The notes under the pieces were generated by a model that saw nothing but the letters and a program-made list of their open reading frames with translations, ran no database searches and was not told the DNA's origin. 46,762 nt of DNA from Candidatus Frackibacter sp. WG13 (GTDB lineage Bacteria; Bacillota; Halanaerobiia; Halobacteroidales; Acetohalobiaceae). The stretch lies in assembly GCF_900114655.1 (NCBI RefSeq), contig NZ_FOTT01000026.1:1-46762 (forward strand), written 5' to 3'. Positions 2,715-43,689 of the stretch are shown in pieces (position 1 is the first letter of the stretch; every line of letters begins with the position of its first letter). Both the position numbers and the translations under genes were made by a program.

Positions 2715-3329
2715 ATGTTAAAAAAAGAGAAGCAGTTAAAATGGTTTGTGATTATTCTATTAATTTCTTTAGGCTTTGGATTATTATTATTATACTTATC
2801 TCTTGATTTATCGATACTTTGGTTTATAGGTTTGATGATAGGGTTTATTTTACAGAGAGCTAACTTCTGTTTTGCTGGTGGCTTTTTAAATTTCTTTTTA
2901 TTTAGAAACACTAAATTAATAAGAGCAATTATTATTTTAATTGGAATTTCAACTATAGGTTTTGCTATTTATCAATACCTTACCTTTAATAGTTGGAACC
3001 AAGTTTTAGGACAGGTTTTACCTTGGGGACTATACACAATTGTTGGTGGATTTATATTTGGTTTAGGAATGTCTTTAGCAGGAGGATGCGCATGTAGTAG
3101 TTTGATGCGTGTTGGAGAAGGAACAATTATCTTTGTGATTGTAATTTTTGGTTTTATAATTGGGAATAGTATTGCGATAGTTCATTTGGAATGGTGGATA
3201 GATAAGTTTACAGTAGCAACTATTTTTATTCCTAAGTATTTAGGATGGGTAAGAGCAGTTTTATTACAGGTGATAGTTTTATCTTTATTGTATAATTTCT
3301 TTAGTTGGTTTGAAAAAAGAGGAAACTAA
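2715..3329 (+). CDS. YeeE/YedE-family sulfur transporter, first half
   Basis: A 204-residue, strongly hydrophobic protein with about six membrane segments. It carries the two Cys-containing signatures of the YeeE/YedE (DUF395, thiosulfate/sulfur transport) family: RANFCFAGG near residue 50 and AGGCACSSLMR near 130. E. coli YeeE is about 350 residues and carries both halves; here the function is split between this gene and the one at 3613. The ribosome binding site AAAGAAAGGG precedes the ATG. It lies 18 bp upstream of a TusA-like gene, matching the YeeE-YeeD partnership. Likely role: uptake of thiosulfate or a related sulfur species through the inner membrane. Confidence 0.85.
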   Translation: MLKKEKQLKWFVIILLISLGFGLLLLYLSLDLSILWFIGLMIGFILQRANFCFAGGFLNFFLFRNTKLIRAIIILIGISTIGFAIYQYLTFNSWNQVLGQVLPWGLYTIVGGFIFGLGMSLAGGCACSSLMRVGEGTIIFVIVIFGFIIGNSIAIVHLEWWIDKFTVATIFIPKYLGWVRAVLLQVIVLSLLYNFFSWFEKRGN

Positions 3330-12222: not shown

Positions 12223-14268
12223 ATGTCAGAGACCAAGGAACTTAAAGAAGAGATGAAAAATTTAGTTGCAAAATTAAATAAGTATAGTTATTATTATTAT
12301 GTCTTAGATGAACCATTAATTAGTGACCGCGAATATGACAGACTTTATGATAGATTGGTAGAATTGGAAGAAGAGACTGGTGAAAGATTACCGAATTCTC
12401 CAACTCAAAGAGTAGGTGGAGAACCTTTAGATGCATTTGATTCTCATCGTCATCTAGCTCCATTATGGAGTCTGGATAAAGCGCAAAGCGGTGGGGAATT
12501 ACGAGATTGGGACCAAAGAGTAAGACGTTTAATTGCTGAGTATAATCTGGGGAACTCTGATGCTTCTTTGCCTAAACCAACTTATACTGTAGAGTATAAG
12601 TTTGATGGTTTAACTATTAACCTTACATATAATGATGGGAAATTGGTTCAAGCAGCTACCCGGGGTAATGGTGAAGTAGGTGAAGCGATTTTAGAACAGG
12701 TGAAGACGATTAAGACAGTTCCTTTAGAGATTCCATTTCAAGCTGGAACTTTAGAGGTACAAGGTGAAGGAATTATGCGTTTATCGGTCTTAGAAGAATA
12801 TAATAAACAGGCTGAAACTCCATTAAAGAATGCGCGGAATGCAGTAGCAGGAGCATTGAGGAATTTAGACCCCAAAACAACAGCAGAACGTAATCTAGAT
12901 GCTTTCTTTTATAATATTGGTTATTATGAGGGAGTAGAGTTTGACAAACATTTAGAAATTTTAGAGTTTCTTCGTGAGAATAGATTTATGGTTAATGATT
13001 ATGTAAATACTTTTACTGATATAGATGATGTTGTTGAAGAGATGGAAAGAGTTGAAGATGAATTAGAAGAATTGGATTATCTAATAGATGGTATGGTAAT
13101 TAAGATTAATGATTTACGCACCCGAGAGGTTTTAGGTTATACTGCCAAAGCACCTCGTTGGGCGATTGCTTATAAGTTTGCTGCTACAGAAGTAACGACT
13201 ACTCTTGAAGATATCATTTGGCAAGTAGGGAGAACAGGAAAGTTAACTCCTGTGGCTTTATTAGAGCCGGTTGATATTGAAGGAGCTACAATTCAAAGAG
13301 CAACTTTAAATAATTGGGATGATATCCAACGTAAGGATGTAGCGAAGGGTTGTCGAGTATGGCTGCGTCGTTCTAATGATGTAATACCAGAAATTATGGG
13401 GAGAGTAGAGATTGAGGAAGATGATAGAAGAGAGATAGAGCCTATTAATAAACCAGAAGAGTGCCCGGCTTGTGGAAGTGAATTAATAGAGGATGGAGTT
13501 CATATCTTCTGTCCTAATTCATTATCTTGTAAGCCACAATTAGTTTCGAGATTATCACATTTTGCCAGTCGAGATGCAATGGAAATCGAAACCTTTAGTG
13601 ATAAGACAGCGGCGCAGTTATATGAAGAGTTAGAATTGCGAGATATAGCTGATCTTTACGAATTAGATTTTGAAGATTTATTAGAACTAGATAGATTTGG
13701 TGAAAAGAAGGCAAGAAACTTATTAGATGCTATTGAAGAGAGTAAAGATGTAGCGTTGTCATCTTTCATCTATGGTTTAGGTGTACCCAATGTAGGCAAG
13801 AATATAGCTCAGTTATTAGCTGATGAATTTAAATCTTTAGATGCAGTAATAGAAGCTAAAGAAGAAGAATTATTAGAGATTAATGGAATTGGTGAAGTAG
13901 TAGCTAAAGGAATAGTTAACTTTTTTAATGATGAGAATGTACAACAGAGTATTCAAGATATGTTAGAAGTTGGTGTTAATCCAACTCATGAAGCTATAGA
14001 GATAGCGACTGATGAAGATGAGAATATCTTTAATGATAAGACAGTAGTTATTACTGGTTCTTTACCAGGGTTAACCCGTAGTGAAGCTAAGGATAAGGTT
14101 AAGGCATTAGGTGGTAAAGCTACTAGCAGTGTGAGTGGTAATACTGATATTTTAATTGCTGGGGAAAGAGCTGGGTCTAAGTTAGATAAAGCTAAAGAGC
14201 TTAGTACTAAAATCATAACTGGAGAAGAGTTTGTGAAATTATTAGATGATTATGGATTAGATAGTTAA
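12223..14268 (+). CDS. ligA: NAD-dependent DNA ligase, divergent LigA
   Basis: A 681-residue LigA: adenylation domain with the nucleophile K126 in KFDG, OB domain, a Cys4 zinc finger (C414, C417, C430, C436), HhH repeats (EINGIGEVVAKGI) and a C-terminal BRCT (about 600-675). It seals nicks with NAD+. The start at 12223 has GAGGTG six bases upstream. Several usually conserved positions differ: RGNG for RGDG, GEAIL for GEDVT, EVQGE for EVRGE, and TLNN for TLHN. It also stands alone, not beside pcrA. It may be a second ligase rather than the housekeeping copy; activity is still likely because the lysine and zinc ligands are kept. Confidence 0.92.
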   Translation: MSETKELKEEMKNLVAKLNKYSYYYYVLDEPLISDREYDRLYDRLVELEEETGERLPNSPTQRVGGEPLDAFDSHRHLAPLWSLDKAQSGGELRDWDQRVRRLIAEYNLGNSDASLPKPTYTVEYKFDGLTINLTYNDGKLVQAATRGNGEVGEAILEQVKTIKTVPLEIPFQAGTLEVQGEGIMRLSVLEEYNKQAETPLKNARNAVAGALRNLDPKTTAERNLDAFFYNIGYYEGVEFDKHLEILEFLRENRFMVNDYVNTFTDIDDVVEEMERVEDELEELDYLIDGMVIKINDLRTREVLGYTAKAPRWAIAYKFAATEVTTTLEDIIWQVGRTGKLTPVALLEPVDIEGATIQRATLNNWDDIQRKDVAKGCRVWLRRSNDVIPEIMGRVEIEEDDRREIEPINKPEECPACGSELIEDGVHIFCPNSLSCKPQLVSRLSHFASRDAMEIETFSDKTAAQLYEELELRDIADLYELDFEDLLELDRFGEKKARNLLDAIEESKDVALSSFIYGLGVPNVGKNIAQLLADEFKSLDAVIEAKEEELLEINGIGEVVAKGIVNFFNDENVQQSIQDMLEVGVNPTHEAIEIATDEDENIFNDKTVVITGSLPGLTRSEAKDKVKALGGKATSSVSGNTDILIAGERAGSKLDKAKELSTKIITGEEFVKLLDDYGLDS

Positions 14269-41504: not shown

Positions 41505-41850
41505 GTAATTTGCGAACAAGTGAGAAGTTAGTCGAACACAAACTGTAACAAGAGGAAACTATACTTTTGGTATATTGACTTTGTTCATAGAGTAATATCG
41601 GCTAAAAAGTTAGACTTCGCGCATAATCGATTGATGTTAGCCATTTAGAATGGAGCAGACTGAAATAAATAAAGCATGGTAAAAGTTGTTTTCTGTTTGA
41701 CCGTTAGGGAGTTTGAAAACAACCCATGCTTTATTTATGGAAGTCGTTGCGGAATTTGTAGGCGGTATCAATTGATTATGTAAGAACCTAGATTTCAAAT
41801 ATGATTGAGGTGAGCAAATCTATAAGGGCTTACGAACCCCTATAAACATT
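41505..41850. ncRNA. candidate structured RNA or mobile-element remnant
   Basis: Several helices: GAACAA/TTGTTC (41514 with 41581), TATAC/GTATA (41560-41574), GGCTAA/TTAGCC (41600 with 41637), and a long hairpin in which 41665-41679 pairs with 41724-41738 (15 bp) and 41685-41693 with 41715-41723 (9 bp), capped by a 21-base loop. A minus-strand copy of the dispersed repeat lies at 41745-41789, which favours a mobile remnant. I do not recognise a known RNA family. Confidence 0.4.
41745..41789 (-). repeat. dispersed intergenic repeat, copy 3
   Basis: On the minus strand it reads AGGTTCTTACATAATCAATT and ends with CAAATTCCGC; the same outer words flank copy 1 at 16817-16859, while the centre differs. 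Confidence 0.5.
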
Positions 41851-41925
41851 AGGCTTATTTAGCTGATAGTATTCTTCATGATTAGGAGGGATGAATCTAT
41901 AAAAAGATTAAGGGAGAGATAATTG

Positions 41926-42654
41926 ATGAAGATAATTGACTTTCATGCCCATGCATTTCCAAGGAAAGTAGCTACAAAGGCAATAGATAGATTAGAGATT
42001 CATTATAATATAGAGATAGAGAATGTAGGGACTCTAGAACATTTAGTAACGACAGCATCTCAGGCGGACATTCATCGGTCAGTCTTGCATGCTTCAGCAA
42101 CAAATGCTAGACAAGTAGAAGCAGTTAATAATTGGATTGCAGATGTGACTTCACCACGTATAATTAGGTTTGGGACTATTCATCCAGAATACGAAGATAT
42201 TGAAAAGGAATTAATTCGCTTAAAAAGTTTAGGGATTAAAGGTTTGAAGCTCCATCCTGATTTTCAACAGTTCGATTTAACAGATCAGAAGATGTATGAA
42301 CTTTATGAAAAGATTGGTGACCAATTTTTAGTTTTATTTCATGTAGGAGATGATGTTTATCCTACTGAAGATAACTATAGCACCCCCCAAAAGATGGCAC
42401 AAGTAATTAAAGATTTTCCTCAATTAAATGCAGTAGCCGGTCATTTAGGTGGTTATCGAATGTGGGATGAGGCAGAAAAGAATATTATTGGTCACGATAT
42501 ATATTTAGACACTTCTAGCGTCTTTCGTTACATATCTTTAGAAAGAGCGAGTGAGTTAATTAAGGCTCATGGAACAGATAAAGTTCTCTTTGGTTCTGAT
42601 TATCCAATGGAGGTGCCTGCTAAAGAGATAAAGAATGTATTGAATTTAGACTAA
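41926..42654 (+). CDS. amidohydrolase-family protein, C-terminally truncated
   Basis: A 242-residue metal-dependent amidohydrolase (COG2159-like TIM barrel): metal site FHAHAFP, GLKLHPDFQ, LFHVGD, AGHLGGY and FGSDYP. It is about half identical by eye to the gene at 42889, which runs about 27 residues further. Its end is set by a TAA created within a 37-bp direct repeat (42615-42651 and 42689-42725). The missing C-terminal helix is still encoded downstream (42690-42800). The barrel residues are complete, so activity may survive. I use the ATG at 41926; a TTG at 41923 is adjacent. Confidence 0.85.
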   Translation: MKIIDFHAHAFPRKVATKAIDRLEIHYNIEIENVGTLEHLVTTASQADIHRSVLHASATNARQVEAVNNWIADVTSPRIIRFGTIHPEYEDIEKELIRLKSLGIKGLKLHPDFQQFDLTDQKMYELYEKIGDQFLVLFHVGDDVYPTEDNYSTPQKMAQVIKDFPQLNAVAGHLGGYRMWDEAEKNIIGHDIYLDTSSVFRYISLERASELIKAHGTDKVLFGSDYPMEVPAKEIKNVLNLD

Positions 42655-42725
42655 ACACGACCATAAGATTAATCAAATTGCTCAAAAAGCCTGCTAAAGA
42701 GATAAAGAATGTATTGAATTTAGAC
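42615..42725 (+). repeat. 37-bp exact direct repeat with 37-bp spacer
   Basis: GCCTGCTAAAGAGATAAAGA through GTATTGAATTTAGAC occurs at 42615-42651 and again at 42689-42725, offset by 74 bases. The spacer 42652-42688 starts with the TAA that ends the amidohydrolase gene and is not homologous to the paralogue. Confidence 0.95.
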
Positions 42726-42800
42726 CTTAGTCTAACAGATAAATGGAAGATACTATATAAGAACGGATTTGAGTTATTGTCTAGATTTGACCTATTGTGA
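42690..42800 (+). pseudogene. detached C-terminal remnant of the first amidohydrolase
   Basis: Reading from the second repeat copy gives PAKEIKNVLNLDLSLTDKWK and then ILYKNGFELLSRFDLL with a stop at 42798-42800. This aligns with the C-terminal end of the downstream paralogue (LGLDLVDRLKILSKNGLKLL), so it is the original tail of the upstream gene. There is no ribosome binding site or start codon. Confidence 0.85.
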
Positions 42801-42888: not shown

Positions 42889-43689
42889 GTGAAGGTAGTA
42901 GACTTTCATACTCATATTTTTCCAGAAGGGATTGCAAGTAGAGCGGTAGAGCAGTTAGAGAATCACTATCAATTGCAGATTAAGAATAATGGGACTTTTG
43001 ATAATTTCATGAATAAGTTTAAAGAAGCTGAATTATATAAAGCAGTAGTCCATGCAGCAGCTGTTGTACCGAGACAGGTGCCAACAGTGAATGACTGGTT
43101 ATTAAAAATTAAGGATGAGAATTTAGTCAACTTTGGTACAATTCATCCTGAATATGAAGATATAGAAGGAGAATTGACTCGTTTAAAAGAAGCAGGGGTT
43201 GGAGGGCTTAAGCTTCATCCGGATTTTCAGAAGTTTGATATTATTTCAAAAGAGGCATATGCTATTTATGAGGCAATAGGTGCTGATTTTTTGGTTCTCT
43301 TCCATGTCGGAGACCAAGTAGAAGAGCCAGCTAATAATTATAGTACTCCACAAAAATTAGCACAGGTTATAGCTGACTTTCCTGAATTAAGAGTTATTGC
43401 AGCCCATTTAGGTGGTTATCAAATGTGGCAAGAAGCTAAGGAATATTTAATTGGAGAGGATATTTACATTGATACTTCTAGTGCCTTAGACTTTTTACCA
43501 GAAGAAGTAGTAGTTGAGATTATTAATACTCATGGAGTAGATAAGGTCTTATTTGGCTCTGACTTTCCTATCAAAGATCCATTAACTGAGATGAGGCAGT
43601 TAACAGATTTAGGTTTAGATTTAGTAGATAGATTAAAGATTTTAAGTAAGAATGGACTAAAACTATTAGAAGAATTAGGGGTAGAATAA
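42889..43689 (+). CDS. amidohydrolase-family protein, full-length paralogue
   Basis: A 266-residue metal-dependent amidohydrolase starting at GTG with AGGAGGAG upstream. Same motifs as its neighbour: DFHTHIFPEG, GLKLHPDFQKFD, LFHVGDQ, AAHLGGYQMW and LFGSDFPIKD. COG2159 members act on C-N or C-C bonds in small carboxylates, often as decarboxylases. The two genes are a tandem duplication. No pathway context is given by the neighbours. Confidence 0.88.
   Translation: MKVVDFHTHIFPEGIASRAVEQLENHYQLQIKNNGTFDNFMNKFKEAELYKAVVHAAAVVPRQVPTVNDWLLKIKDENLVNFGTIHPEYEDIEGELTRLKEAGVGGLKLHPDFQKFDIISKEAYAIYEAIGADFLVLFHVGDQVEEPANNYSTPQKLAQVIADFPELRVIAAHLGGYQMWQEAKEYLIGEDIYIDTSSALDFLPEEVVVEIINTHGVDKVLFGSDFPIKDPLTEMRQLTDLGLDLVDRLKILSKNGLKLLEELGVE

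Follow-up and report, generated by a model that had tools for sequence, protein, structure and literature searches.

The question raised by the present locus is how 37 bases of a phage came to lie inside a bacterial protein-coding gene, enclosed by two exact copies of 37 bases of that same gene. The gene, an amidohydrolase, belongs to Candidatus Frackibacter sp. WG13 and was analyzed in a stretch of 46,762 nucleotides (contig NZ_FOTT01000026.1), which is called the window here. An earlier note on this DNA, made from the sequence alone, had described a 37-bp direct repeat with a 37-bp spacer that truncates the gene, and had offered two explanations, a recent templated duplication or a small insertion with an unusually long target duplication. 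In our analysis by far the most probable answer, with a probability of roughly 0.94, is off-target CRISPR adaptation, in which Cas1-Cas2 put a phage prespacer into a chromosomal gene and not into the array.

The interrupted amidohydrolase gene

The following features of the window are needed for the argument:

41926..42800, plus strand: amidohydrolase gene (PF04909), given in the extent it would have if the 74 bp had not been gained (Pfam match, orthologue alignment, open reading frame)
42615..42651, plus strand: first copy of the duplicated 37-bp target (direct sequence comparison)
42652..42688, plus strand: 37-bp phage-derived spacer, starting with the TAA that ends the open reading frame (match to IMGVR_UViG_3300028034_000051)
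42689..42725, plus strand: second copy of the duplicated 37-bp target (direct sequence comparison)
42726..42800, plus strand: detached C-terminal coding sequence of the amidohydrolase, readable to a TGA (orthologue alignment)
42889..43689, plus strand: intact tandem paralogue (PF04909), a possible backup (open reading frame, Pfam match)

The two target copies are identical in 37 of 37 nucleotides and the bases flanking them differ on both sides, so that the borders are sharp and the unit has a geometry of 37/37/37 (target/spacer/target). The site has gained 74 bp in all, 37 of them new and 37 repeating bases that were already there. Counted from a TTG at 41923, the open reading frame now ends at 42654 after 243 amino acids, because the spacer brings a TAA and because the gain of 74 bp, which is not a multiple of three, shifts the frame; about 23 C-terminal residues are removed in this way. 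The reading of the earlier note, according to which the unit comprises exactly 74 bases, a TAA stands directly behind the first copy and the C-terminal coding sequence can still be followed past the second one, was borne out in all points: the copies are exact, the spacer opens with the TAA codon at 42652-42654, and 42726-42800 carries no further lesion.

Comparison with relatives, as the earlier note had advised, brought to light an uninterrupted gene. The closest orthologue is found in a genome of the same family and another genus (G002; protein identity 74%), so the empty site is known from a comparison above species level. This orthologue reads through and, aligned with the window gene, lacks exactly 74 nt in total at the place of insertion, and when the flanks in the window are joined, a protein of 266 amino acids results that is colinear with the 267-aa orthologue; therefore 74 bp were gained in the window gene. 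The truncated amidohydrolase has presumably lost its enzyme activity, and the intact paralogue may explain why the broken gene is tolerated. In the gap upstream of the amidohydrolase gene, a 22-nt inverted repeat (window positions 41658-41745, arms 86% complementary with 44 nt between them) looks like a small hairpin element.

How exceptional the unit is was judged from a screen for direct repeats in 428,449 bases of the organism's own DNA, consisting of the window and sampled stretches (about 15% of the genome, CRISPR array excluded). With a minimum length of 18 nt and a maximum distance of 300 bp, 25 exact pairs were counted, and a repeat of 35-39 with a gap of 33-41 was displayed by one of them, the amidohydrolase unit itself, with no second unit of this shape in the 15% scanned. 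The other 24 were tandem runs of low complexity, dispersed repeats or short pairs of other kinds.

Phage origin of the spacer

The view of the earlier note that the spacer is foreign to the gene can be sharpened, as all 37 nt match a phage contig. The 28-nt core of the spacer has a single match in IMG/VR, and on that contig, IMGVR_UViG_3300028034_000051, the identity extends over 37 of 37 nt, with the next base differing on both sides. The contig measures 72,413 bp and is probably derived from a temperate phage, because an SPP1-type portal, a minor capsid protein and an integrase are present. The protospacer lies inside a phage ORF of 153 codons without Pfam match, whose relatives in IMG/VR were confined to the same contig. 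The window has a G+C content of 34.5%, the phage stretches one of 34-35%. Among GenBank phages only four partial matches to the spacer, at chance level, were obtained.

Other sources of the spacer were considered and rejected. The genome search proposed in the earlier note, carried out with up to 3 mismatches allowed, located the spacer at a single place, so that a template in the own genome is lacking and the recent templated duplication has to be abandoned. A relative's prophage as the source is opposed by the occurrence of the spacer in just one of 59 genomes of the class, the own one (none of the 58 others contained it), and by the terminase search, in which no terminase of the donor-phage type was found in the own genome. 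The weak resemblance of part of the spacer to a dispersed repeat, for which chance had been allowed in the earlier note, is indeed best read as chance, because the phage explains all 37 nt. The perfect target copies fit a recent event, as does the perfect viral match.

Relatives of the donor phage were met with elsewhere. A terminase 83% identical to that of the donor belongs to a prophage-like region in a genome of the same order (G008:C6:329808-331202, L046), and one with 82% identity is contained in another IMG/VR record (L041). In a second sample a fragment (L043, IMGVR_UViG_3300028374_000288) carries a terminase 99% identical to the donor's over the last 187 residues; the donor phage therefore recurs.

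CRISPR-Cas system of the host

The genome (G000; 2,767,037 bases in 48 contigs) possesses a single cas1, beside which cas4, cas2, cas3, cas5h, csh2 and a gene for a TM1802/Csh1 protein make up a type I-B set according to NCBIfam. Cas1, cas2 and cas4 score above the NCBIfam cut-offs, and at the position of cas6 a 229-aa ORF without NCBIfam match is situated. Adjoining the cas operon is an array in which a 37-bp repeat is present 25 times, perfectly in 24 cases, and its canonical spacers measure 35-39 nt, most commonly 37 (8 of the 22 that are readable, part of the array region being masked). The duplication in the amidohydrolase gene hence has the length of the host repeat, and the insert of 37 nt falls within the range of the host spacers. 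The second explanation of the earlier note, that of a small insertion, can thus be kept in form, with the insert now recognized as a virus-derived spacer and the unusual length of the target duplication explained by the length of the CRISPR repeat in this genome, which it equals.

Likeness of the target to the repeat and flank of the protospacer

In sequence the target has little in common with the array. It agrees with the canonical repeat in 12 of 37 positions, a level reached by 32% of the background, and with the leader at background level. Its last ten bases match the end of the repeat in forward orientation at 7 of 10 positions, a score attained by 0.4% of the background and the highest among 13 comparisons. 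On the attacked strand the target, like the repeat, has G at both borders, a property of 2.5% of sampled 37-mers; for off-target sites of a type II-A system in vitro, a preference for G at the attacked base is described (PMC6895254).

In the orientation of the 7/10 end match the protospacer is flanked by TTA in the phage. TTA, TTTA and TTN are listed as type I-B PAMs (PMC8482600). Since 22% of the phage 3-mers agree with one or another of the PAMs listed there, and the PAM of this host may be a different one, the flank is no more than suggestive. Protospacers from which a PAM could be derived were sought with the cores of five of the 22 canonical spacers, which gave no match in IMG/VR. When all 22 were compared by BLAST with the examined parts of the donor phage and of the prophage loci, nothing beyond 13-14 nt was detected.

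Probable off-target adaptation and alternative explanations

In regular adaptation the two 3' ends of a prespacer are linked by Cas1-Cas2 to opposite ends of the repeat, one on each strand, and repair duplicates the repeat. The length of the repeat is set by rulers, as shown for types I-E and I-B (PMC6895254), and how large the complex is determines spacer length and leader-distal site (PMC13034035). The same reaction at a site that is not a repeat would yield the unit observed here. The type I-B Cas1-Cas2 of the host, together with Cas4, would have been loaded with a 37-bp prespacer cut from the phage and would have attacked, in place of the leader-repeat junction, a 37-bp stretch of the amidohydrolase gene at both ends, each on a different strand. 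Filling in of the single-stranded halves would then have duplicated this stretch and left target, spacer and target with the true spacing of an array unit. Such a course would account for the anatomy of the unit, the empty site of the relative, the equal lengths of repeat and spacer, the cas genes and the phage match alike; the host's own Cas1-Cas2 as the agent, as well as the order of the two attacks, would be a reading of the sequence.

As an alternative, repair of a staggered break, in which overhangs of 37 nt were filled in and a stray phage fragment of 37 nt was captured without any Cas integrase, would agree with a target that resembles neither repeat nor leader, and breaks are known in general to take up foreign filler DNA. 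It would, however, demand that both lengths equal the CRISPR lengths of the host by chance and that the phage match stops exactly at both borders, and no other pair of such shape turned up in the bases screened, so that this course is judged improbable. Still less credit is given to a conventional transposable element whose target duplication was very long: a direct duplication around foreign DNA would be expected from it, but no inverted repeat was reported inside the insert by repeat analysis, the insert is a piece of a phage ORF present at one genome place only, and the duplications made by insertion sequences are typically much shorter. An artefact of assembly might be suspected in a draft genome of 48 contigs; it is scarcely credible, as a misassembly would not set exactly 37 phage bases between exact gene copies and as the phage is otherwise absent from the assembly by terminase search.

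A different proposal concerns the fate of the unit, which might be a functional CRISPR of one spacer, transcribed from the promoter of the gene, processed by Cas6 and retained since it guides Cascade against the phage. The position within a coding gene, in the sense of that gene, would suit this idea, as would the perfect match of the spacer to a phage with a TTA flank and the partial agreement of the last bases of the copy with the end of the repeat. If it were true, an array would have been caught at birth within a metabolic gene. Sharing only 12 of 37 positions with the canonical repeat, the copies are however not recognizable as the repeat of this system, and both the recognition by Cas6 and the 8-nt tag would presumably be altered. 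A guide RNA or a working mini-CRISPR is unlikely for that very reason, and the chance that the unit was kept for such a function is considered slight.

Comparison with known systems

When E. coli Cas1-Cas2 was overexpressed, integration at off-target sites was reported to occur in vivo (Nivala, Shipman & Church, 2018, as cited in PMC11788318 and PMC9456107). As far as that case is presented by the citing papers, it resembles ours in that the adaptation complex placed a spacer at a chromosomal site outside the array, and differs in that the window comes from a type I-B host in nature, with no overexpression involved, that a phage donor matches in 37 of 37 nt, that a coding gene was truncated and that the target is not much like the leader or the repeat. 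Nivala, Shipman and Church are also said to have listed candidates from nature in 2018, in Yersinia pestis and Sulfolobus islandicus. In the titles and beginnings of abstracts that were searched, among which most subscription papers were not included, no natural case from a host with a type I-B system was named. The amidohydrolase unit is most probably a further natural case of off-target integration, and an unusually complete one, with donor virus, enzyme set and the relative's empty site all known.

Ectopic acquisition in Streptococcus thermophilus likewise brought a new spacer to an unusual place and duplicated a repeat, but the target there, by the account given in the source, was a true repeat in the array (PMC7999890) and here it is a protein-coding gene. 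The ectopic CRISPR repeats of the CreTA type share with our unit the arrangement of a repeat-flanked element outside the array; those repeats are described as degenerate copies of the array repeat (PMC9458426), whereas the window has plain gene sequence with 12 of 37 matches. Integration by Cas1 is regarded as mechanistically analogous to transposition (PMC8390005). As in the target-site duplication of a transposon, staggered attack and fill-in would leave a direct duplication; unlike a transposon, the insert is a 37-bp phage fragment without element ends.

Read as off-target adaptation, the locus would be a natural, base-exact record of CRISPR adaptation as an insertional mutagen, with the viral donor known and a host gene broken. 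Since the target is hardly array-like, sequence would do little in nature to direct Cas1-Cas2 to the places where it makes full-site products. All genomes with cas1 can be screened for the signature, in which an insert of spacer length is enclosed by exact direct copies as long as the host's repeat, and such a screen would measure how often chromosomes are damaged by adaptation and whether this is how new arrays arise.

Further repeats in the genome

An isolated CRISPR repeat with one mismatch lies at 12626-12662 of locus L006, about 3 kb off the main array, with the stretch between them partly masked. In the same locus a sequence of 101 nt occurs twice (3087-3187 and 12423-12523; 97% identity, 9.3 kb apart), each copy beginning inside a fragment of the CRISPR repeat, and the two are possibly remnants of the array's old distal end. 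A dispersed repeat (GACAGTGAAGCCCAGAAAAG and neighbours) forms several tandem-like copies at L006 2732-2870 and L059 18829-19050.
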